NCBI GenBank assembly: GCA_020426325.1
Contig: JAGQQG010000012.1
Span: 1 to 64,000, forward strand
Source: Planctomycetaceae bacterium
Lineage (GTDB): Bacteria; Planctomycetota; Planctomycetia; Planctomycetales; Planctomycetaceae
Length of the DNA stretch: 64,000 nucleotides
Direction of reading: 5' to 3'
Shown: positions 6,003 through 61,128 of the stretch, in pieces
How the letters are laid out: each line of letters begins with the position of its first letter
Position numbering within the stretch: position 1 is the first letter of the stretch
Made by a program: the position numbers and the translations under genes
Notes under the pieces: generated by a model
Databases searched by the model: none
What the model was told of the DNA's origin: nothing
Seen by the model: the letters and a program-made list of their open reading frames with translations, nothing else

Positions 6003-8047
<2,045 letters not shown>

Positions 8048-8090
8048 GATTCTGGAACGAAATGAGGATTCCTGTTAGGCTTTAACAATC

Positions 8091-8384
8091 ATGGCTGACT
8101 CCAACTCTCCTCCCGCTGATCGTCCTGATGACCCTGTCTTCCTGCATGCGAGGCGTGAAGCACTCGTGATTCTGGGACTCTGGGCTGCTGCAATGTTGTG
8201 GGTCGTGCCTTACTGCTACTTCTTCGGATACCACCCGGTTGAGAATCCTGAACAGCTGAAAACCATCATCGGAATCCCTGACTGGGTTTTCTGGGGCGTG
8301 TTCGTTCCATGGCTTGTGTGCTGCCTCTTCTCGTTCGTGTTCAGCTTCTGGCTTATCCAAGACGATGACCTCGAAGCCGAGTGA
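8091..8384 (+). CDS. Small two-helix membrane protein, YhdT/DUF997-like
   Basis: 97 residues with two membrane helices: residues 24-46 (EALVILGLWAAAMLWVVPY) and 65-89 (WVFWGVFVPWLVCCLFSFVF). The loop between them has the pattern YFFGYHP...GIPDWVFWG, and the C-terminus is acidic (DDDLEAE). This agrees with the YhdT/DUF997 family, small proteins that in many bacteria are encoded beside a sodium/pantothenate-type symporter. Here no symporter follows; the nearest SSS-family gene is 20 kb away on the other strand. Its role is therefore not clear from context. Confidence 0.7.
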   Translation: MADSNSPPADRPDDPVFLHARREALVILGLWAAAMLWVVPYCYFFGYHPVENPEQLKTIIGIPDWVFWGVFVPWLVCCLFSFVFSFWLIQDDDLEAE

Positions 8385-8603
8385 AGAGCTTGGAGAGCTT
8401 TTACCCTTCGAGGTGCTAGTGGTCATCCCCGTGCGACAATCCAGCTCGTGGGTATTGACCGAAATCAAGCGGTTCAGCGGCTTGACTCATTTCAATTGCT
8501 GACACTCTAAGCGATTCATGCTCAGCATTGCGTGAAAGATGTTCACCTCGATCGTCTCAGCGTGAGGGGCCTCATCGACTCAAAAGTTTCATCTGGCTGA
8601 TGA

Positions 8604-9710
8604 TCAGTTGTTCTCGACGCCGTACTCCTGGAGCGTTTGAGTTGCAGCCGCGCGACCTAAACGGAAGGCGTCGCCGGCTTCTCCGTTGAAGAAGTCGGAC
8701 AGGTCGACGAGTGCGGGACCAAGCAGGATCAAGAAGACCGCCGGCATCAGGCACAGAGCGGTCGGGAACAGCAGTTTGAATGTGGCCATGTTAGCGGCTT
8801 GATCGGCCCGCTGCTTTTGACTTTCGCGGATGTTGTCGCTGTGATCGGCCAACGCAGAGGAGACGCTGGTCCCCATTCTCTCGGTCTGGATTAGCGTCGA
8901 GGTGAAGGAGTTGACTTCGGGCACGTCGACCCGATCCGCGAAGTTCTGAAGTGCCTGTTCCATCGAGCCGACCTTGGCCTGATCGGAAACGATACTGAGT
9001 TCCTGCGACAGAGCCGGGTAGACCGATTTGAGTTCGTAGCTCACGCGGTTCAGCGAGGCAGGGAGTGTCATGCCTTGACTGACGCACATGTTGAGCATGT
9101 CGAGCATGTCGGGCATGGCTTTGCCGATTTGGTCGCGTCGATCAGCGGCTCGGCTGCGGACCATGAGGCCTGGCAAGGCCCAGCCCAGCATCACCGCAGC
9201 CACACCTGCGAGCAACACATACATCTCCAGTACGGGCGGGACCATCAGGAACACGATCCCGAAGAACAGGATCGGCAGGATCATGCCCAGGTAACGAATG
9301 GCAGCCAGGTTCAACCAGGCGTTGGGTTGATAGTAGCCCGCGTTTGCCAGCTCACGCTTCATGAGCCGCTTCTTCTCGTCGCTCTCGGGAAGCATGGAGG
9401 CGAGCAGCGGTGTCGCACCCCCGAAGATCATGTCGGTATGTCCGGGCACGTCGCCGGGCTCGACCTTGGGAAGAGGCTTGGTGCTGGCTGAAGGTGCGAG
9501 GGTAACACTTGCGACGGGTGCGACTGTCTCGGATAGCGCACCGATCTGAGTGACGGCTGATTTTGGCTGCTTGCGGAGGCCAGAGTTCTCTGATTTCAGA
9601 TTGCTCAGCCATCCCGAGCGACGGCGACGCAGGAAGACGAGGGTCAGCAACGCGGCCCCGACGATGCATGCTGCGACAATCAGGATGGTGCGAAGTTCTG
9701 GAGTAAGCAT
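8604..9710 (-). CDS. tadC: Tad pilus inner-membrane platform protein TadC (type II secretion F domain)
   Basis: 368 residues. One N-terminal helix (ILIVAACIVGAALLTLVFL), a hydrophilic linker, then two helices near 130-180 and a T2SSF domain with DMLDMLNMCVSQGMTLPASL and VNSFTSTLIQTERMGTSV, and two C-terminal helices. This order is that of TadC, which with TadB forms the membrane platform on which the CpaF ATPase works to build Flp-type pili. It is the last gene of the cluster, 75 bases after tadB. In the 219 bases that follow no clear terminator was seen. Confidence 0.88.
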   Translation of the reverse strand: MLTPELRTILIVAACIVGAALLTLVFLRRRRSGWLSNLKSENSGLRKQPKSAVTQIGALSETVAPVASVTLAPSASTKPLPKVEPGDVPGHTDMIFGGATPLLASMLPESDEKKRLMKRELANAGYYQPNAWLNLAAIRYLGMILPILFFGIVFLMVPPVLEMYVLLAGVAAVMLGWALPGLMVRSRAADRRDQIGKAMPDMLDMLNMCVSQGMTLPASLNRVSYELKSVYPALSQELSIVSDQAKVGSMEQALQNFADRVDVPEVNSFTSTLIQTERMGTSVSSALADHSDNIRESQKQRADQAANMATFKLLFPTALCLMPAVFLILLGPALVDLSDFFNGEAGDAFRLGRAAATQTLQEYGVENN

Positions 9711-21126: not shown

Positions 21127-22317
21127 TCAGAATCTCGACAGGATCGGCAGCACTTCTTTCTGAATCTCACCGCCGGTCACGTGGACGGTGCCGTCGAAGC
21201 CGATGAAAACATCCACCTCGCTGCGAACACCGAACTCTGGAAGGTAGATTCCGGGCTCGATGGAGAAGCACGTTCCGGGAAGGAGTCGCCGCTGGTCGCG
21301 GGTCTCAAGGTTGTCGATGTTGGCCCCGTTTCCGTGTGTTTCCTGGCCGATGCTATGACCGGTGCGATGTGTGAAGAACTCCGCGTAACCTGCTGCCGCG
21401 ATGACTGATCTTGTTGCATCGTCGACTTCTGCACCAGTCAGTGGCCGCCCGCTGGCGAAAGCTTCCCGGACGCAGGCAATCCCGGCATCCCGGGCCGCTG
21501 CCACGATGTGAAAAATCTCGTTGAACTGTTCCGGAACGCTTTCGCCGACAAATCCGACGCGAGTGAGATCGCTATACACTGCTCGTGGGCGATCAAACTT
21601 GGCCCAGAGATCGATGAGTACGAAATCCCCCTCGCGAATCAGTGTGTCATTCCCCTCGCCCGTCTCATAGTGGGGGAGTCCGCTGTGTGGACCGCGGGCA
21701 ACAATGGGCGGGTGATAGGTCGTCATCCCATGCACGGCAAAGTGATCCATGATGGCAGCCCGTACGTCGCTTTCCTCGATCCCCTCGCCCGTCCTGCAAG
21801 CCTCAGCAATTGCTCGCCAGGCGACATCAAATGCGGAGTTGGTATGAACGCTGACCTCTTGATGCATTTGCCACTGGGCTTCATCCCAGGTCGCTTCAAA
21901 ACGTTGGACCAGATCTCCGGAGGAAACGATCTCCACGCCCTGTTCGCGAACCAGTTCGACTGTGCCGGCGTCGACACGAGCGACATACGGGTTCCCTGCC
22001 CGTGGCGAATACTCCATCGCAACAGTGGACAAGCCTTTCACCAGCGATGCGACACCCTGTTCGAGTTCCTGCCAATGGAGGTAGATCGTCTTTTCCCCCG
22101 GCAGATGATCGAGTGCTCCCAACTCGATCCGGTGCACTAGCTTGTGAGGTTCTCCGTGTGCCGGAACCACATAGAACCATCGACGGGTTCCCACGTTGTC
22201 ATCCTCAATCCCGAGCATGCGACACGCCAGGGGATTGGTGCCGCGAAAGTCATACATCAGCCACCCATCAACACCAAACTCCTGAAGAACGGCCTGAACA
22301 GACTTCAGATCAAACAT
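21127..22317 (-). CDS. M24-family metallopeptidase, Xaa-Pro aminopeptidase type
   Basis: 396 residues from ATG 22317; the frame is open for 17 more codons upstream, but those residues look non-coding and MFDLKSVQAVLQ is a typical beginning. The pita-bread metal ligands are visible: D236 (LIDLWAK), D250 (YSDLTRV), H321 (TGHSIG), E354 (FSIEPGIY) and E367 (RSEVDVF). The N-terminal creatinase-like domain covers about residues 1-140. It should bind two Mn2+/Co2+ ions and remove N-terminal residues before proline or act as a related dipeptidase. Cytosolic. It is in the middle of a minus-strand run of genes. Confidence 0.92.
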   Translation of the reverse strand: MFDLKSVQAVLQEFGVDGWLMYDFRGTNPLACRMLGIEDDNVGTRRWFYVVPAHGEPHKLVHRIELGALDHLPGEKTIYLHWQELEQGVASLVKGLSTVAMEYSPRAGNPYVARVDAGTVELVREQGVEIVSSGDLVQRFEATWDEAQWQMHQEVSVHTNSAFDVAWRAIAEACRTGEGIEESDVRAAIMDHFAVHGMTTYHPPIVARGPHSGLPHYETGEGNDTLIREGDFVLIDLWAKFDRPRAVYSDLTRVGFVGESVPEQFNEIFHIVAAARDAGIACVREAFASGRPLTGAEVDDATRSVIAAAGYAEFFTHRTGHSIGQETHGNGANIDNLETRDQRRLLPGTCFSIEPGIYLPEFGVRSEVDVFIGFDGTVHVTGGEIQKEVLPILSRF

Positions 22318-22375
22318 GGCGAGTCTCTCGAGCTTGAGGAAGAGTGATGTTGCCCCTCGTCCTCTCACGAGGACT

Positions 22376-23587
22376 TCAGCGGGAGATCAGCAGGCGTGCG
22401 GCTCTCTTGTAGACGGCAGGCTGTTCTTCCTGCAACCTCTCGACAAACTCGCGGGCGGAGGCAAGGGCCTCCCGATGTTTCTGGTCCACCGTTTCCAGAT
22501 CCACCTGTGACGCCACAATCATGAAATTGACGATCGCCGTATCGATGTGCTTGTCCGGCGGACTCTGATAGCGAGCCAGGAGTTCCGTCGTGACTGACCA
22601 GTCTTCCCAGCGAGCAAGATCGGTTATCGACAGTTCCGGGAATTCAGTGATGTCCAACTGTTGACGCACCGACTGACGCAGTCGTTCCTTGTCGATACAT
22701 CCGTCGCCATAATCCCAGATGAACCGTAACGAATCGATCACTGCGTACCGGTCGCTGGAAGAGCACGATTCCTTCTGCAGAAACTCGCGGTCCAACACGT
22801 TGAGGCCTTCAGGCCCGGCGAGCAACAGATAGCCTCCCATCACTCCTGCGATGCCCAGGCGGAGTTCACCGGTCGTCTCCAACGCGAGGTCTTCGAGGCG
22901 TTGCCGATCGCTCGCGTCTCCACAGATGCCGAGGAGCATGCCGTAAACTCCGAGCTGTCCCTTGAGTGGCTTGTTACCGAATACCCAGCGGCGCATTTCT
23001 TTCCTCGGCAATTCCTCCCGCAGTGCAGATAATTCCTCATACTTTGAAGCAGCAATCACGGTAAATGCATCGGTCGCCACCATGTCGTCCTGAGACTCCA
23101 GATGTTTCAGCGCATGTCGAAGTCGCTCATCGGCAGAGGCCTCTGCCGACGGAAGTGTTTTTACGTATGACAGTCCGATCTGGCTGAGCGGAATGGCCCG
23201 ATCCCATTTGATGACGTCGTCCAGCAGACTGCCGGAGATGAGAAATTGATCTCCCGCCTGTCCCTCCTGATAACGGTCGATCGTCAGGGAGTCATTCTGT
23301 TTTAGGTCCCCTTTAATGACTTCCAGGATTGTGAACTCGGTCGTCGCTGGAATTCCCTGATCGAGATTGCCGGGGTCGCCCGTCTTCCATTCCACGATGA
23401 GCGATGCATCCGGCGAGTCCATGCGTTCGCGGAGCGTGAGCTGCTGACTCCCCAGGCAGAACGGACATGCCGTCAGAGCTGGGGAGGAAATTTGCACGCA
23501 TGCTGTGATGCAGAAGACCAGCAGGAGCAAGACTGCTAAGGATCGCAGTACGGACGTTAATCTTCCCTGAGAATGCAATTTCAACAT
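22376..23587 (-). CDS. Exported CPFC-motif protein of unknown function (paralogue A)
   Basis: 403 residues from ATG 23587, preferred over GTG 23611 because GGAGGAG lies eight bases before it. The N-terminus is a hydrophobic signal segment; FCITAC could be a lipobox with C30. The mature end starts with TACPFC (CPFC at 41-44), then TLRERMDSPDASLIVEWK. Downstream it aligns throughout with the next gene upstream: EGQAGDQFLISG, LGVYGMLLGICGDASD, LRLGIAGVMGGYLLLAG, LRFIWDYGDG and ITDLARWEDWSVTTELL. This is a tandem duplication that has diverged. No known domain was recognised; the CXXC could be redox-active or metal-binding. The M24 gene follows 58 bases later. Confidence 0.8.
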   Translation of the reverse strand: MLKLHSQGRLTSVLRSLAVLLLLVFCITACVQISSPALTACPFCLGSQQLTLRERMDSPDASLIVEWKTGDPGNLDQGIPATTEFTILEVIKGDLKQNDSLTIDRYQEGQAGDQFLISGSLLDDVIKWDRAIPLSQIGLSYVKTLPSAEASADERLRHALKHLESQDDMVATDAFTVIAASKYEELSALREELPRKEMRRWVFGNKPLKGQLGVYGMLLGICGDASDRQRLEDLALETTGELRLGIAGVMGGYLLLAGPEGLNVLDREFLQKESCSSSDRYAVIDSLRFIWDYGDGCIDKERLRQSVRQQLDITEFPELSITDLARWEDWSVTTELLARYQSPPDKHIDTAIVNFMIVASQVDLETVDQKHREALASAREFVERLQEEQPAVYKRAARLLISR

Positions 23588-23634
23588 CAATGGGTCTCCT
23601 CCTGAAACCACGACGTCTGTTTGGGCGTGTCGAC

Positions 23635-24825
23635 TCAGTTCACGAAGAAGAATCGCTCTGCCTGCTTGACGGTTTTGGGGTCCTGTTCTCGCAGCTGATT
23701 GAGGTATTCCTCAGCTTTGGCGATGTGAGAATTGTCAGCCCCTTCTTCCGGCTCGTCCTTGGACGCTACCAGCATGTATCGGACAATCGCCCGCTTGATG
23801 GATGGGATTTCATACCCCTCAGCTCCGTACAAATTCATCAGGCGGTCAATGATTGACCAGTCTTCCCAGCGTGCGAGATCTGCGATGACCAGATCGGCCA
23901 ATTCTGCCCGATCAAGAAGAATCCGCATCGACTCTCGCAAGCGTTCAGGGTCGATGCGTTGTCCGTAGGTCCACATGAAACGCAGGGCCTGCATGGCCGC
24001 ATAGGTTTCGCTGAACGGCACATCGCGGTTGGCCAGCTTCTGCTCGTCGATGACCGTCAACCCCTCCTCACCGGTGAGAAGCAGGTATCCCCCCATCACG
24101 CCATCAATTCCCAGACGGAAATCATCGCTTTTCTGGAGAATCTTCTCTTTCATCAATGCAGCGTCTTCCTCGGTTCCGCACAGTCCGAGCAGCAGTCCGT
24201 ACAATCCCAGTCGCGTGGGAGCCACGTCGGGATTTGTGAGCCATTCGCGAACTTTGTCCCGAGGCAGTTGTTCAGCCAGCGGAACGATGTCCTTGTAGGG
24301 AGCATTCGCGAACTCACCATAGGCGTCATTCGAGATGAGTTCGTCCGGGTACTCGAGAAACTGAACGAAGTAGCTCAGACGTACCAACGGAACCGCCTCC
24401 GGAGAGGGGGCCTGACGCACGTAGTTGAACCCCGTCTCGGTGATTTCAATGGGGCTGCCCCACTCCAGTTCGGTTCCCTTCGTTCCGAGCAGCAGGAACA
24501 GATCACCCTCCTTGCCGGCACGATAGCGCGGCAGCGTGATGGTGTCCCCTTTCTTCAGTTCGGTTTCACCTGCATTGATCACTTCGACAACACTGTAGTC
24601 AGTCGAACCGATATCCCCTGCTTCGCTGTTTCCCTGCGTCCCTTTTGCCCACTGGACCAGTGCGCTGGCGTTCGCCTGAGCGACCTGCTCAGAAAGCGTG
24701 AGTGACGGAGCTGAACAGAAGGGACAGGCTACGAGTCGCTCCGCGATCGTCCCGCTCAGGGCGACGACTGCGAGAACTGCCAGTGTGGCAAAGATCCGTG
24801 TTTGGAATCGATTTCGATCTGTCAT
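23635..24825 (-). CDS. Exported CPFC-motif protein of unknown function (paralogue B)
   Basis: 396 residues. A signal peptide (IFATLAVLAVVALSG) is followed by LVACPFCSAP with C34 and C37. The rest parallels paralogue A: TLSEQVAQANASALVQW, EGDLFLLLG, RLGLYGLLLGLCGTEED, FRLGIDGVMGGYLLL, ALRFMWTYG and VIADLARWEDWSIIDRL. The first 110 residues after the signal look like a beta-rich domain (STDYSVVEVINAG, LKKGDTITLPRYRAG), while the rest is helical. Residues around the CPFC are the best-conserved part between the two copies. Gaps of 47-61 bases to its neighbours suggest one operon with A and the two DUF3299-like genes. Confidence 0.82.
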   Translation of the reverse strand: MTDRNRFQTRIFATLAVLAVVALSGTIAERLVACPFCSAPSLTLSEQVAQANASALVQWAKGTQGNSEAGDIGSTDYSVVEVINAGETELKKGDTITLPRYRAGKEGDLFLLLGTKGTELEWGSPIEITETGFNYVRQAPSPEAVPLVRLSYFVQFLEYPDELISNDAYGEFANAPYKDIVPLAEQLPRDKVREWLTNPDVAPTRLGLYGLLLGLCGTEEDAALMKEKILQKSDDFRLGIDGVMGGYLLLTGEEGLTVIDEQKLANRDVPFSETYAAMQALRFMWTYGQRIDPERLRESMRILLDRAELADLVIADLARWEDWSIIDRLMNLYGAEGYEIPSIKRAIVRYMLVASKDEPEEGADNSHIAKAEEYLNQLREQDPKTVKQAERFFFVN

Positions 24826-24886
24826 GTCATCTGCCTTTGTCAGCCGTGTCTTGTGTCACGCGACTTCATTCATCGCGGCTGCGCCG

Positions 24887-25801
24887 TTATTGGTCAAGCA
24901 CCAGGGCGTCGTCGAGGAGGTAGAGCTGATACAACTCATCCTCATCAGCTTCCGGAAGAATGTGAAAGATACCTTCGACATCAAAGGCACGTCCCTGGAT
25001 GTAATCGGTCGTCACGCCATCGCGCATGGTGACTTGAATATGATCATAGATTTTGGCTCCCGGGCCGAAACAGCACTCCTGATTGTCTCGCACGAGAACA
25101 AATGTCCGTAATCCTGTGGATTGAAACGCGGGATACATGAAGCCGCGAATCCGGATTCGTTGTCCCTCCAGTCCCGCCAGCCAATTCGGGAAATACGTCT
25201 CTGCATCAACTGGAACTGGTTCCATATTGAGGATGTCGAGTAGATTGACATCATCGTAAGAAACACGGAGCGCGTCTGCGTCGCCTTCAGATGTGAAGGA
25301 CTTTTCCGGGATTAGCAGCTTGATCTCGCGTTGCTCCACGGGGACATCCGAGACAGCAAATAGATTGGGTTCAGATACGGGTAAATCAGCTGCGGGACTC
25401 GCCGCTGCATCATTCACCAGTTCGGGCGCGAGCGGCTCCTCAGGTGACGGCGGCGCTTCATTCTCTGCAGGCTCAGTCTGAACCACGTTTTCAGTCGGGG
25501 AGTTGTCCAGAGACGACGGAGGCTCTTCCGTCAGTTCATTCGTTGATGCATCTTCGGACTGCTCGGAGACTGACACCGCAATTTCATTGGGAACGGCTTC
25601 TGTTGCCGAAGAACCTTCTTCATCGGCCACCTCAGCGTCCAGGCTGCCATCCGCCAAACTGTCGTCCCCACTCCCATCAGACTCTTCGATGGCCTGATAG
25701 GTCTGGTACTCATCGCCGGGGCCATCCTGGCAGCCCGCGATGATCAGGCAGGTGAGCGCGAGACAGAGTGTGAGTCTCAGGCGATCCATCAGATAGGGCA
25801 T
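24887..25801 (-). CDS. Lipoprotein with a C-terminal DUF3299-like (CCFG) domain
   Basis: 304 residues from ATG 25801, which has GAGAGG nine bases upstream; a second ATG is at 25789. Lipobox LIIAGC with C24. Residues 25-150 are acidic, Ser/Glu/Pro-rich and probably unstructured. The C-terminal domain (about 205-304) has LEGQRIRIRGFMYP, LRTFVLVRDNQECCFGPG (C243, C244) and a DGVTTDYIQGRAFDVEG repeat typical of DUF3299 proteins. It is anchored in a membrane and faces outward. The partner gene upstream carries the same domain on three membrane helices. Function unknown. Confidence 0.8.
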   Translation of the reverse strand: MPYLMDRLRLTLCLALTCLIIAGCQDGPGDEYQTYQAIEESDGSGDDSLADGSLDAEVADEEGSSATEAVPNEIAVSVSEQSEDASTNELTEEPPSSLDNSPTENVVQTEPAENEAPPSPEEPLAPELVNDAAASPAADLPVSEPNLFAVSDVPVEQREIKLLIPEKSFTSEGDADALRVSYDDVNLLDILNMEPVPVDAETYFPNWLAGLEGQRIRIRGFMYPAFQSTGLRTFVLVRDNQECCFGPGAKIYDHIQVTMRDGVTTDYIQGRAFDVEGIFHILPEADEDELYQLYLLDDALVLDQ

Positions 25802-25847
25802 TCAGCAAAACCTCTCATCGTGTCCGTGATCTTCGAGGGATCATTGC

Positions 25848-26597
25848 TCAGAAGGAAGTTTGTGCTTCTGAGAAGTGATCCGCATCGAACATGAACAGGG
25901 CTTCCAGATTCCCGCCCTGATAGTTGGGATTGAGTTTGAGCTTGCCAGCAACTGCAACCCGCCGCGGACAATACTCGACACCATCAGGAGTCAGGACATT
26001 GATCATATCCTCCAGAGCCGGCTGTCCCCCGAAACAGCAATCGCCGCTGTCTTTCAACAACAGGAACTCGGTGATTCCGGACTGTTTTTGCGTGGGATAC
26101 ATGTATCCCTTGAGAAAAATCGGTTGGCCGACGAGGGCCTTCACATCAGGATGCACATCCTGAATCCCCTCTTCGACAATGAATGCTTTCTTGGAGATGT
26201 CTTTTGTGAAGCTGACCCGTTCGTACCCTTCGGGGACTTCGTGTTCGTAGAGATAGAACTGATGAGCAGTCCCGCCGATGGCTGACGTCCCGCTGAGCAG
26301 CAGTCCAATAATCGCGAACTTCATTCCCGCGAACGCTCCCTTGGATCGGCCGATCTTCCAACAGGCGAACAGGCTGACGAGTGTGCCTACGAAAGCCATG
26401 ATCACTCCGAACAGTCCGAAGTACGCGAGCAATGCAGTCAGCCCCAATACCGCGCTCACAGGAGCAACAACGGGCATCGGAACGTAGTCGAACTGACCAT
26501 ATGTCGGATCGTAACTGACTCGTGCTTCAACGGGGGCTGCTTCGGCCCCGCTCTCGGGGCCACTTACATCATCCACAGCGTCCATGATTTGCGACAT
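25848..26597 (-). CDS. Membrane protein with a C-terminal DUF3299-like (CCFG) domain
   Basis: 250 residues from ATG 26597, preceded by GGGAGG at ten bases; the frame is open 15 codons further. A cytoplasmic N-terminus of about 40 residues is followed by three membrane helices (about 42-62, 64-81 and 92-112). The extracytoplasmic domain has LVGQPIFLKGYMYPTQK and ITEFLLLKDSGDCCFGGQP (C187, C188), then VAVAGKLKLNPNYQGG. The domain matches the neighbouring lipoprotein, so this operon holds two DUF3299-like proteins plus two CPFC proteins. It is the first gene of the run. Confidence 0.82.
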   Translation of the reverse strand: MSQIMDAVDDVSGPESGAEAAPVEARVSYDPTYGQFDYVPMPVVAPVSAVLGLTALLAYFGLFGVIMAFVGTLVSLFACWKIGRSKGAFAGMKFAIIGLLLSGTSAIGGTAHQFYLYEHEVPEGYERVSFTKDISKKAFIVEEGIQDVHPDVKALVGQPIFLKGYMYPTQKQSGITEFLLLKDSGDCCFGGQPALEDMINVLTPDGVEYCPRRVAVAGKLKLNPNYQGGNLEALFMFDADHFSEAQTSF

Positions 26598-57947: not shown

Positions 57948-59468
57948 ATGACCCGAATGTTGTTTACGTTGACTGCCATGGCTGCCATGGTAGCAACATC
58001 CGCCCAAGCAGGAGACTGTGGCAACTGCTACAGCTCATGTGGAACCGCAGCGTGTGGTTCTTGCGGAGGATGTGACACTGGTTGCGGCGACGCCTGTGGC
58101 GGCGCACCGGCCAGTTGTGGTGACGGTTGCTATTCAACCGTCGAATGCACTGTGATGGTGCCCCAGCAGGTGACCGAGTACCGCACCGTCTGCCGGACTG
58201 CTTACCGTCAGGAGCAGCGTGAGCGGACCTACACCGTGTACAAGCAGGTTCCTCGCACCGAGACCAAGACTCGGACCGTGAGCTACCACACCTGGGAAGA
58301 TCGCACCCGCGAAGAATCTTACACCGTTTGTGAAAACGTGTGGGAAGAAAAGACCCAGTCTTACAAGGTTTGCGTTCCTTACACTGAAGAGCGTCAGGGA
58401 ACTCGCACCGTCTGCAAGCAGGTCTGGGAAGATCAGACTCAAGAGTACACAGTTCAGGTTCCTTACACCGAAGAGCGTCAGGGATCTCGCACTGTTTACA
58501 AGCCGGTCTGGGAAGAGAAGACCCAGGACTACACAGTCCAAGTTCCTTACACCGAAGAGCGTCAGGGAACCCGCACTGTTTACAAGCCGGTTTGGGAAGA
58601 GAAAACCCAGGAGTACACAGTCCAAGTTCCTTACACCGAAGAGCGGACTGGCTACAAGAGTGTCTGGGATACGGTTCAGGAAACACACTACCGTACCGTC
58701 TCTCGTGATGCCGGTCATTGGGTGACCCAGCAGGTTGCTGATCCTTGCAATCCGTGCTGCGTGCGTTGCTGCCGTAAGTGGTGCCCGCAAGTCGTTTGCG
58801 AGCAGGTTCCCTACACGGTCTGCAAGAAAGTCTGCCGTCAGGAGCCGTACACCTACACGGTGACGCTCTGTCGTCCGGAAGTTCGCACTCGGTCCTACAA
58901 GGTCTGCACGCAGGTCGCAGAGCAGCAGCCGTACACCTACACGGTCAGCCTCTGTCGCGCCGAGACCCGTACCCGGACCTACAAGGTCTGCACGCAGGTC
59001 GCCGAGCAGCAGCCGTACACCTACACGGTTAATCTCTGCCGTCCTGAGACCCGGACCCGGACCTACAAGGTCTGCAAGAACGTCTCGGTTGAAGAGCCGT
59101 ACACGTACACGGTCTGCCTGCATCGTTGGGAAGATCGCACTCGGTCCTACAAGGTTTGCAAGCAGGTTCCCGTTCAGAAGACTCGCGTCGTGAGCTATAA
59201 GGTTTGTGTTCCGCAAACTCGCGAAGAGTCCTATGACGTGACCGTTTACGACTCCGTTCCTGAGCAGAAGACCCAGGCTTACACCGTCTGCGTCCCCTAC
59301 CAGGTCCAAGAGCAGGTTCCGTACACCACCTGCAAGATGGTCCCGACAACCGTGACCAAGCAGGTTTACTCTGGTGGTAGCTGCGGCGGCAATGGCTGTG
59401 GCAGCTGCGGATCTTCCTGTGGTAGCTGTGGCTCATCCTGCGGTGGATGCAGCTCCTGCGGTAACTGA
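57948..59468 (+). CDS. Cysteine-rich YTV-repeat cell-wall protein
   Basis: 506 residues. ATG has a strong AGGAGG seven bases upstream. The signal peptide ends at AQA (residue 21). A Cys/Gly-rich segment follows (24-62). The core consists of YTV repeats with a 28-residue period: four units VWEEKTQEYTVQVPYTEERQ-type at 131-238 and four units EPYTYTVTLCRPEVRTR-type at 299-410, joined by a Cys-rich linker (CCVRCCRKWC). The tail is a Gly/Cys/Ser repeat (GSCGSSCGSCGSSCGG). Proteins with this YTV domain have been reported as major planctomycete cell-wall components, cross-linked by disulfides. The gene is monocistronic, with a strong terminator. Confidence 0.93.
   Translation: MTRMLFTLTAMAAMVATSAQAGDCGNCYSSCGTAACGSCGGCDTGCGDACGGAPASCGDGCYSTVECTVMVPQQVTEYRTVCRTAYRQEQRERTYTVYKQVPRTETKTRTVSYHTWEDRTREESYTVCENVWEEKTQSYKVCVPYTEERQGTRTVCKQVWEDQTQEYTVQVPYTEERQGSRTVYKPVWEEKTQDYTVQVPYTEERQGTRTVYKPVWEEKTQEYTVQVPYTEERTGYKSVWDTVQETHYRTVSRDAGHWVTQQVADPCNPCCVRCCRKWCPQVVCEQVPYTVCKKVCRQEPYTYTVTLCRPEVRTRSYKVCTQVAEQQPYTYTVSLCRAETRTRTYKVCTQVAEQQPYTYTVNLCRPETRTRTYKVCKNVSVEEPYTYTVCLHRWEDRTRSYKVCKQVPVQKTRVVSYKVCVPQTREESYDVTVYDSVPEQKTQAYTVCVPYQVQEQVPYTTCKMVPTTVTKQVYSGGSCGGNGCGSCGSSCGSCGSSCGGCSSCGN
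58338..58661 (+). repeat. Four 84-bp tandem repeats, block 1 of the YTV gene
   Basis: Each unit encodes 28 residues beginning VWEE or VWED and containing YTVQVPYTEERQG; the fourth unit has 24 residues. Units 2-4 are nearly identical in DNA sequence, so this stretch may change length by recombination. Confidence 0.85.
58842..59177 (+). repeat. Four 84-bp tandem repeats, block 2 of the YTV gene
   Basis: Each unit encodes 28 residues of EPYTYTV-x-LCR-x-E-x-RTR-x-YKVC-type. The period equals that of block 1, but residues and Cys placement differ, which suggests an ancient duplication followed by separate homogenisation. Confidence 0.8.
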
Positions 59469-60564: not shown

Positions 60565-61128
60565 TCAGTGCTCGTGACCTGCTTCCCCCTCATGGTCATG
60601 CTCGTCGTGGTCATGTTCCAGCGCGCCCGTGTAGCTGTCTCCGTTGATCTCCACGGTGACGCTGCCGTGCAGGTCTTCGATGTCCTTGATCGCTGCGACG
60701 GTCTCTCCAGTCGCTGAAAACCTTGACGCCTGACCTTCCGCATCGCCCTCTTGTGGTTCAGCGGCCAAAGTAATCGGCTCTCCTCCTTCAACTGCAAACT
60801 CGATTTGTTCCAGCGGCACAGCCACAGTGTTCTCAGCATGGGCATCGAGTACGTAGACCACGAGACGCTCGTTGTTCGGCTCAAAAACAACCTCTGCATT
60901 GTAGAGATGGTCGCCCAACTCGATCAGGTGTCCCCCATGAGGAGCCTCGTGGTGATGGTGTTCGTCTTCGTGAACATGGGCTTCGGCCTGCTCCACTTCC
61001 TTCTCGGTGACGGGAGCATACCCCCCCCCCTGATCGCATCCAGACTGGAAAGAAAACCCGATTATCCCCAGGAGGGCAAACGAATGCGGAAGACATCGCA
61101 ATGATTGTGACAAGACTTGAAAACGCAT
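60565..61128 (-). CDS. His-rich lipoprotein with an efflux-adaptor-like segment
   Basis: 187 residues; AAGGAG lies four bases before ATG 61128. The N-terminal hydrophobic segment ends in FSFQSGC (possible lipobox, Cys near residue 31). A short Gly run follows, encoded by 10 G in a row. Next are the His/Glu-rich stretch HVHEDEHHHHEAPHGGHLIELG and the segment HLYNAEVVFEPNNERLVVYVLD, like the start of CusB/RND adaptors, where HGG-L-LG-H is a metal or lipoyl-side motif. The tail is again His-rich (EHDHDEHDHEGEAGHEH). Probably a periplasmic metal-binding protein for Zn2+, Ni2+ or Cu+. Confidence 0.8.
   Translation of the reverse strand: MRFQVLSQSLRCLPHSFALLGIIGFSFQSGCDQGGGYAPVTEKEVEQAEAHVHEDEHHHHEAPHGGHLIELGDHLYNAEVVFEPNNERLVVYVLDAHAENTVAVPLEQIEFAVEGGEPITLAAEPQEGDAEGQASRFSATGETVAAIKDIEDLHGSVTVEINGDSYTGALEHDHDEHDHEGEAGHEH
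61021..61030. repeat. Run of 10 C (G on the coding strand) within the lipoprotein gene
   Basis: Ten consecutive C on the plus strand encode the Gly run next to the lipobox Cys of the His-rich lipoprotein. Slipped-strand change by one base would shift the frame and abolish the protein. Confidence 0.9.

Follow-up and report, generated by a model that had tools for sequence, protein, structure and literature searches.

We propose that four adjacent genes of a Planctomycetaceae bacterium, together with an ABC ATPase and a permease encoded elsewhere in its genome, are a planctomycete version of the Zrg/PA4063-4066 zinc-starvation system of Vibrio and Pseudomonas aeruginosa, without ZrgA and with an additional protein, here called CPFC. 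It is very likely that the ATPase and permease partner the four proteins, which probably serve, anchored to the membrane, as the periplasmic accessories of a MacB-type ABC machine with split genes that would handle a soft metal or its chelate. That the substrate is a metal or metal chelate we consider about as likely as not. Published readings of the Zrg-type transporter and its DUF3299 protein rival each other, the operon being credited either with zinc import (PMC9820375) or with MacB-type export of a cobalt-pyochelin complex (PMC11481552). The planctomycete version represents a natural experiment: comparing the retained ATPase, permease and DUF3299 with the exchange of ZrgA for CPFC delineates the machine's core. 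A testable role also emerges for hypothetical envelope genes present in nearly every sampled genome of this planctomycete family.

Four exported proteins form two paralogous pairs

The DNA analysed (hereafter the window) comprises 64,000 nt of assembly GCA_020426325.1 (contig JAGQQG010000012.1, positions 1-64,000). All four ORFs lie on the - strand in the order CCFG-tm, CCFG-lp, CPFC1, CPFC2, with intergenic gaps of 23-61 bp. CCFG-tm (25848..26597) combines three N-terminal membrane helices with a periplasmic DUF3299-like OB domain bearing CCFG, and CCFG-lp (24887..25801) has a lipobox (IIAGC, Cys24), a low-complexity stalk of ~130 residues and, again, a DUF3299-like OB domain with CCFG. CPFC1 (23635..24825) consists of a signal peptide, a predicted mature N-terminus of CPFC, a beta domain (~52-122) and a HEAT-like solenoid (~130-394); its paralogue CPFC2 (22376..23611) has the same layout. 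CPFC2 begins with GTG, with an alternative ATG start at 23587. The CCFG-tm ORF could start as far out as 26642, and its start is probably 26597 (MSQ...), because the family alignment begins there. Pfam and NCBIfam searches of the four window proteins returned no family above its cut-off. A gene for an M24-type peptidase (window 21127-22368) lies directly downstream of CPFC2 and is perhaps part of the run; CPFC is likewise followed by a gene of the M24 family at L228:2631-3896, L229:12988-14208 and L232:3404-4603, in three more genomes.

A first-pass annotation, made from the letters of this DNA, had described the four proteins as exported and as two paralogous pairs, and both descriptions stand, as do its gene positions, with 26597 as the likely start of CCFG-tm. 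CPFC1 and CPFC2 are 39% identical over 379 residues (E 2.9e-80) and share the blocks MGGYLLL, RFM/IW-YG and DLARWEDWS as well as the CxxC; the window's genome holds no third CPFC copy. CCFG-tm matches CCFG-lp over residues 168-253 (35% identity, E 8.3e-9), both proteins carry the motifs named for this pair, including CCFG, and the contrasting topologies read by the annotation were likewise recovered, namely three predicted membrane helices in one protein and a lipobox with a Ser/Glu/Pro-rich stalk in the other.

CPFC is an undescribed protein family in the libraries and literature searched and was found only in planctomycetes. Residues C34, P35 and C37 are conserved at ≥90% among 41 relatives, which share 11 invariant columns. 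In the AlphaFold2 model of CPFC1 (mean pLDDT 93.4), a signal helix and a beta domain precede a long solenoid of helices, and the best Foldseek matches of the model are mostly HEAT/ARM solenoids. A sequence search of solved structures with CPFC gave nothing significant. The beta domain weakly matches agrin NtA (1pxu, E 0.045) and TIMP-1 (7s7m, E 0.1), such that an NTR/TIMP-like fold serves only as a lead. These NTR/TIMP-like domains also have a cysteine motif at the mature N-terminus. They differ from CPFC in having CxC rather than CxxC, in lacking the added HEAT solenoid and in showing no sequence match.

The mature CPFC chain is predicted to start with Cys-Pro-Phe-Cys, because the CxxC sits directly behind the hydrophobic signal stretch in 160 of 170 distinct CPFC-family ORFs (as CPFC in 141) and the sites are mostly of the signal peptidase I type. 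Specifically, signal peptidase I fits 130 of the 160 sites, and Ala occupies position -1 of the CxxC in 118. We also considered CPFC proteins as lipoproteins, and rejected this since a lipobox fits 27 of these sites only; they are thus mostly soluble.

The CCFG proteins are divergent DUF3299 proteins

CCFG-tm and CCFG-lp are divergent members of the DUF3299 (OB-fold) proteins, in agreement with the label DUF3299-like that the pair had first been given. In the structure model of CCFG-tm, predicted membrane helices (59-75, 77-99, 107-135) are followed by a beta domain whose top Foldseek match is 4hsp, i.e., PA4066 of P. aeruginosa (E 2.2e-6, TM 0.61 on 4hsp), and the CCFG family profile finds the 4hsp chain by sequence (E 6.9e-5), making PA4066 the closest structure by both profile and fold. 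Against DUF3299 (PF11736), the two window copies reach 20.2 and 12.3 bits, below the 22-bit gathering cut-off, which is exceeded by their syntenic relatives at L265, L270, L278 and L280. The OB fold, GYxxP and the second Cys of CCFG are common to DUF3299 and the window proteins; in contrast, the latter have CCFG where 4hsp-type proteins have CIHVPPPP, and they carry extra transmembrane or stalk regions. Beyond the class, DUF3299 proteins beside an ATPase-permease pair bear CCFG, CCYG or CCIGVPP, and a Rhizobium DUF3299 protein stands alone without the ABC pair. In DUF3299-like proteins of family f3 (L263:8608-9363, L264:8573-9286), CNFC or CKFC stands in place of CCFG, giving a CxxC spacing, and the cysteine pairing is kept despite this change.

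In relatives, an ABC ATPase and permease accompany the four genes

In sister families, the gene order is often CPFC-CCFGtm-CCFGlp(-CPFC) and the permease lies next to the CPFC/CCFG genes; in several of them, genes for an ABC ATPase and a permease (FtsX and MacB_PCD domains) are located directly upstream of the cluster. A profile built from the sister-family permeases was searched across the window's family, and 60 of its 61 genomes each gave a single strong match. Where both genes were present, the permease was ≤5 kb from CCFG-tm in 17/56 family genomes and unlinked in 39/56. Runs of ATPase-permease-CCFGtm-CCFGlp-CPFC occur at L224-L231, and those at L224-L230 end in a second CPFC gene. Among 80 named Planctomycetota loci, CCFG-lp follows CCFG-tm in 73 of the 74 with enough sequence, and CPFC comes next in 48/58.

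The matching ATPase and permease of the window's genome, each intact and single-copy, are encoded on a different contig (G000:C2, locus L213:6716-8733; genes at 6716-7399 and 7399-8733). Because this pair is intact and away from the contig end, its separation from the four genes is real. In the loci examined, no replacement gene set adjoined the displaced pair, and no conserved neighbours of the four genes were seen in the first 20 family loci, because most of these had the ATPase and permease displaced. Immediately upstream of the displaced ATPase, a gene for PCMT (isoaspartyl methyltransferase; L213:5838-6542) clusters with genes in the same position at L215, L219 and L227 and is perhaps an old neighbour.

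The partner pair has the FtsX and MacB_PCD domains and the LolD-type ATPase in common with the MacB/LolCDE/FtsEX superfamily. It differs in that the ATPase is a separate gene, scores against the curated subfamilies are low, and a MacA-like adaptor was not observed next to the pair. LolD is the best curated family of the ATPase (186.6 and 203 bits, against a cut-off of 307.75). Curated matches of the permease include LolC/E and FtsX, with 28-47 bits for LolCE (against a cut-off of 362.45), and its best matches among solved structures are MacB (52 bits) and LolE (43 bits). The permease profile scores 223 bits against the PA4065 homologue of a Pseudomonas plasmid and 216 bits against the Sulfitobacter permease. 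It is because the PA4065 homologue reaches 223 bits, versus 52 for the best solved MacB, that we interpret the six genes as a form of the Zrg/PA4063-4066 system.

Comparison with the Zrg and PA4063-4066 systems

Like the planctomycete set, PA4063-PA4066 of P. aeruginosa and zrgABCDE of Vibrio place a split ATPase and MacB-type permease beside DUF3299, with PA4066 adjoining PA4064/PA4065. The permeases match at 216-223 bits and the ATPases at 179-182 bits, and the DUF3299 fold and domain are the same. Plasmids were searched twice independently, the PA4066 domain being the query in one case and the planctomycete permease in the other (over 7.3 Gb of DNA); both searches led to the same Phaeobacter/Sulfitobacter loci, where the best plasmid relatives of that permease lie beside DUF3299. 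The order is ZrgA-ATPase-permease-DUF3299-DUF3299 in Sulfitobacter and ZrgA-ATPase-permease-DUF3299 on the Pseudomonas plasmid; generally, ATPase-permease-DUF3299 recurs outside the class with one or two DUF3299 genes, several of them above the Pfam cut-off. The planctomycete set differs in lacking ZrgA (PF10986 above cut-off in 0/59 genomes of the phylum, including the window's own), in having two membrane- or lipid-anchored DUF3299 proteins, in the addition of CPFC, none of which was found on plasmids, and, in the window's genome, in the transporter pair being elsewhere.

According to published work, Zur controls the Zrg-type operon of both Vibrio and Pseudomonas (PMC9817125, PMC11481552), and DUF3299/ZrgE, ZrgB and ZrgC have been tied to Zur regulation and to zinc (PMC9817125, PMC11481552, PMC9820375). 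DUF3299 has been assigned no function in the published work on Zrg/PA4063-4066 (PMC9817125, PMC11481552, PMC9820375); the PA4066 crystal structure revealed no evident zinc-binding ability (PMC11481552), and a single zrgE deletion in Vibrio had no phenotype (PMC9820375). The statement of the first-pass annotation that it knew of no published function needs qualifying accordingly, in that a published context exists through ZrgE and PA4066, and it had missed the ABC ATPase and permease.

Distribution and separability

In the window's family, CPFC is present in 60/61 genomes and CCFG in 58/61. The two lie ≤5 kb apart in 44 of the 55 genomes where both were located, a linkage far above chance. Among 392 genomes of the phylum, CPFC is almost restricted to one class. 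A working partnership of CCFG and permease predicts that genomes retain both or neither; in family f5, the permease was recovered in 6/6 genomes with strong CCFG and in 0/24 with weak or no CCFG (Fisher p 1.7e-6, which overstates independence, as the genomes are related and the genes adjacent where coordinates are listed); these f5 genomes contained no CPFC. In f6, another planctomycete family, CPFC has lost this machine, and genomes carry it without the permease or strong CCFG. Most f5 genomes and every f6 genome tested lack the permease, with f5 and f3 retaining permease and DUF3299, and f6 retaining CPFC. CPFC is, therefore, a separable module. Of the single envelope complex first proposed for the four proteins, the functional linkage stands; the pairs are separable, some lineages having only permease and DUF3299 and others only CPFC, such that a single complex, if it forms, need not be obligate.

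In four f6 loci (L303, L305, L307, L308; domains were named at L303 and L308, and L305 and L307 were assigned by clustering), CPFC directly follows a His-rich DUF1980-type gene whose C-terminal domain bears NCCAADA. An ArsP_1 permease gene precedes the DUF1980-type gene wherever the contig reaches, an ABC-3 (ZnuB-type) permease gene is present at L303, L305 and L308, and a CbiM-like gene lies downstream at L308. An OB-like Cys-Cys domain, here that of the DUF1980/ArsP_1 (DUF318) pair, thus adjoins CPFC in these four genomes as well. The pair differs from the CCFG set in its permease and in its marginal match to the CCFG profile (11.6 and 8.1 bits for the two sequences tested). With its His-rich Cys-Cys membrane protein, the f6 cluster is possibly a metal uptake cluster; by guilt by association, both CPFC contexts point to metals. 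Metal handling by the four proteins, raised at first reading, is judged plausible.

Alternative explanations

The ATPase could instead belong to a LolCDE-like machine for envelope building or for sorting lipoproteins or lipids, with the lipoprotein and OB proteins as carriers and no role for metals. The LolD, LolC/E and FtsX matches, the near-universal, single-copy permease of the family and the tethered lipoprotein in the set speak for such a machine. However, scores fall short of every Lol cut-off, the permease is far nearer PA4065 than LolE or MacB, its absence from most of f5 and from every f6 genome tested sits poorly with an indispensable sorting route, and the other CPFC context is a metal cluster; we consider this reading improbable. 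Less probable again is an ABC-independent complex of the four envelope proteins, with the transporter linkage as an ancestral leftover. The unlinked permease in 39 of 56 genomes and the persistence of CPFC without it in f6 would suit this idea, but the permease is kept in 60/61 family genomes whatever its position, and the 6/6 versus 0/24 co-occurrence in f5 also argues against it, though linked genes get lost together.

A thiol/disulfide redox pair of CPFC and CCFG proteins, with incidental ABC genes, ranks marginally lower still. CPxC resembles glutaredoxin active sites, and paired cysteines are kept as CC and, in f3, as CxFC. On the other side, the predicted folds (beta domain plus HEAT, and OB) include no thioredoxin-like fold, the CxxC sits at the extreme N-terminus before the beta domain and HEAT solenoid, DUF3299 proteins of Proteobacteria retain only one of the two CCFG cysteines, and linkage to the ABC genes persists outside the class. 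A thioredoxin-type redox pair was rejected on these predicted folds, and the suggestion of the earlier reading that the four proteins handle disulfides is not supported.

Proposed mechanism

In the accessory-set model that we favour, ATP hydrolysis would drive the periplasmic domain of the permease through MacB-type mechanotransmission, with a permease dimer and the ATPase relaying movement to the periplasmic side. Of the two DUF3299 proteins, CCFG-tm would be held by its helices and CCFG-lp tethered by lipid and stalk, and both may dock on the permease, and the CPFC proteins may fill the place of the missing metal-binding ZrgA. The N-terminal Cys-Pro-Phe-Cys of CPFC and the Cys-Cys of CCFG could handle a soft metal (Zn or Co) or metal chelate, which CPFC would present or receive via its N-terminal cysteines. 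The machine might then move the metal or chelate across or out of the periplasm, in either direction, as with Zrg. Against this model stand the unlinked ATPase and permease of the window's genome, the occurrence of CPFC and of permease/DUF3299 each without the other in whole families, the absence of ZrgA, the lack of evident zinc binding in the PA4066 structure and the missing phenotype of the zrgE deletion. Furthermore, the near-universality of these genes in the family favours a housekeeping role over on-demand scavenging and, being unlike a condition-specific scavenger, also counts against the model.

More tentatively, and in our view rather unlikely, CPFC could represent a new class of periplasmic metal handler, in which the free N-terminal amine and the Cys-x-x-Cys released by signal peptidase cleavage would bind the metal. 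In the course of evolution, such a handler would have been joined to two metal machines that are unrelated to each other (MacB-type/DUF3299 and ZnuB-type/DUF1980), and it would replace ZrgA in planctomycetes.

Other genes in the window

Two further window genes are worth recording. A small His-rich lipoprotein (HEDEHHHHEAPHGGH...), encoded at 60565-61128 and matching no Pfam family above cut-off, is a candidate periplasmic metal binder. At 57948-59468, a Cys-rich protein of repeated YTV-type segments (YTVQVPYTEERQGTRTVYKPVWEEKTQ) is encoded, which we take to resemble the YTV wall proteins of planctomycetes.
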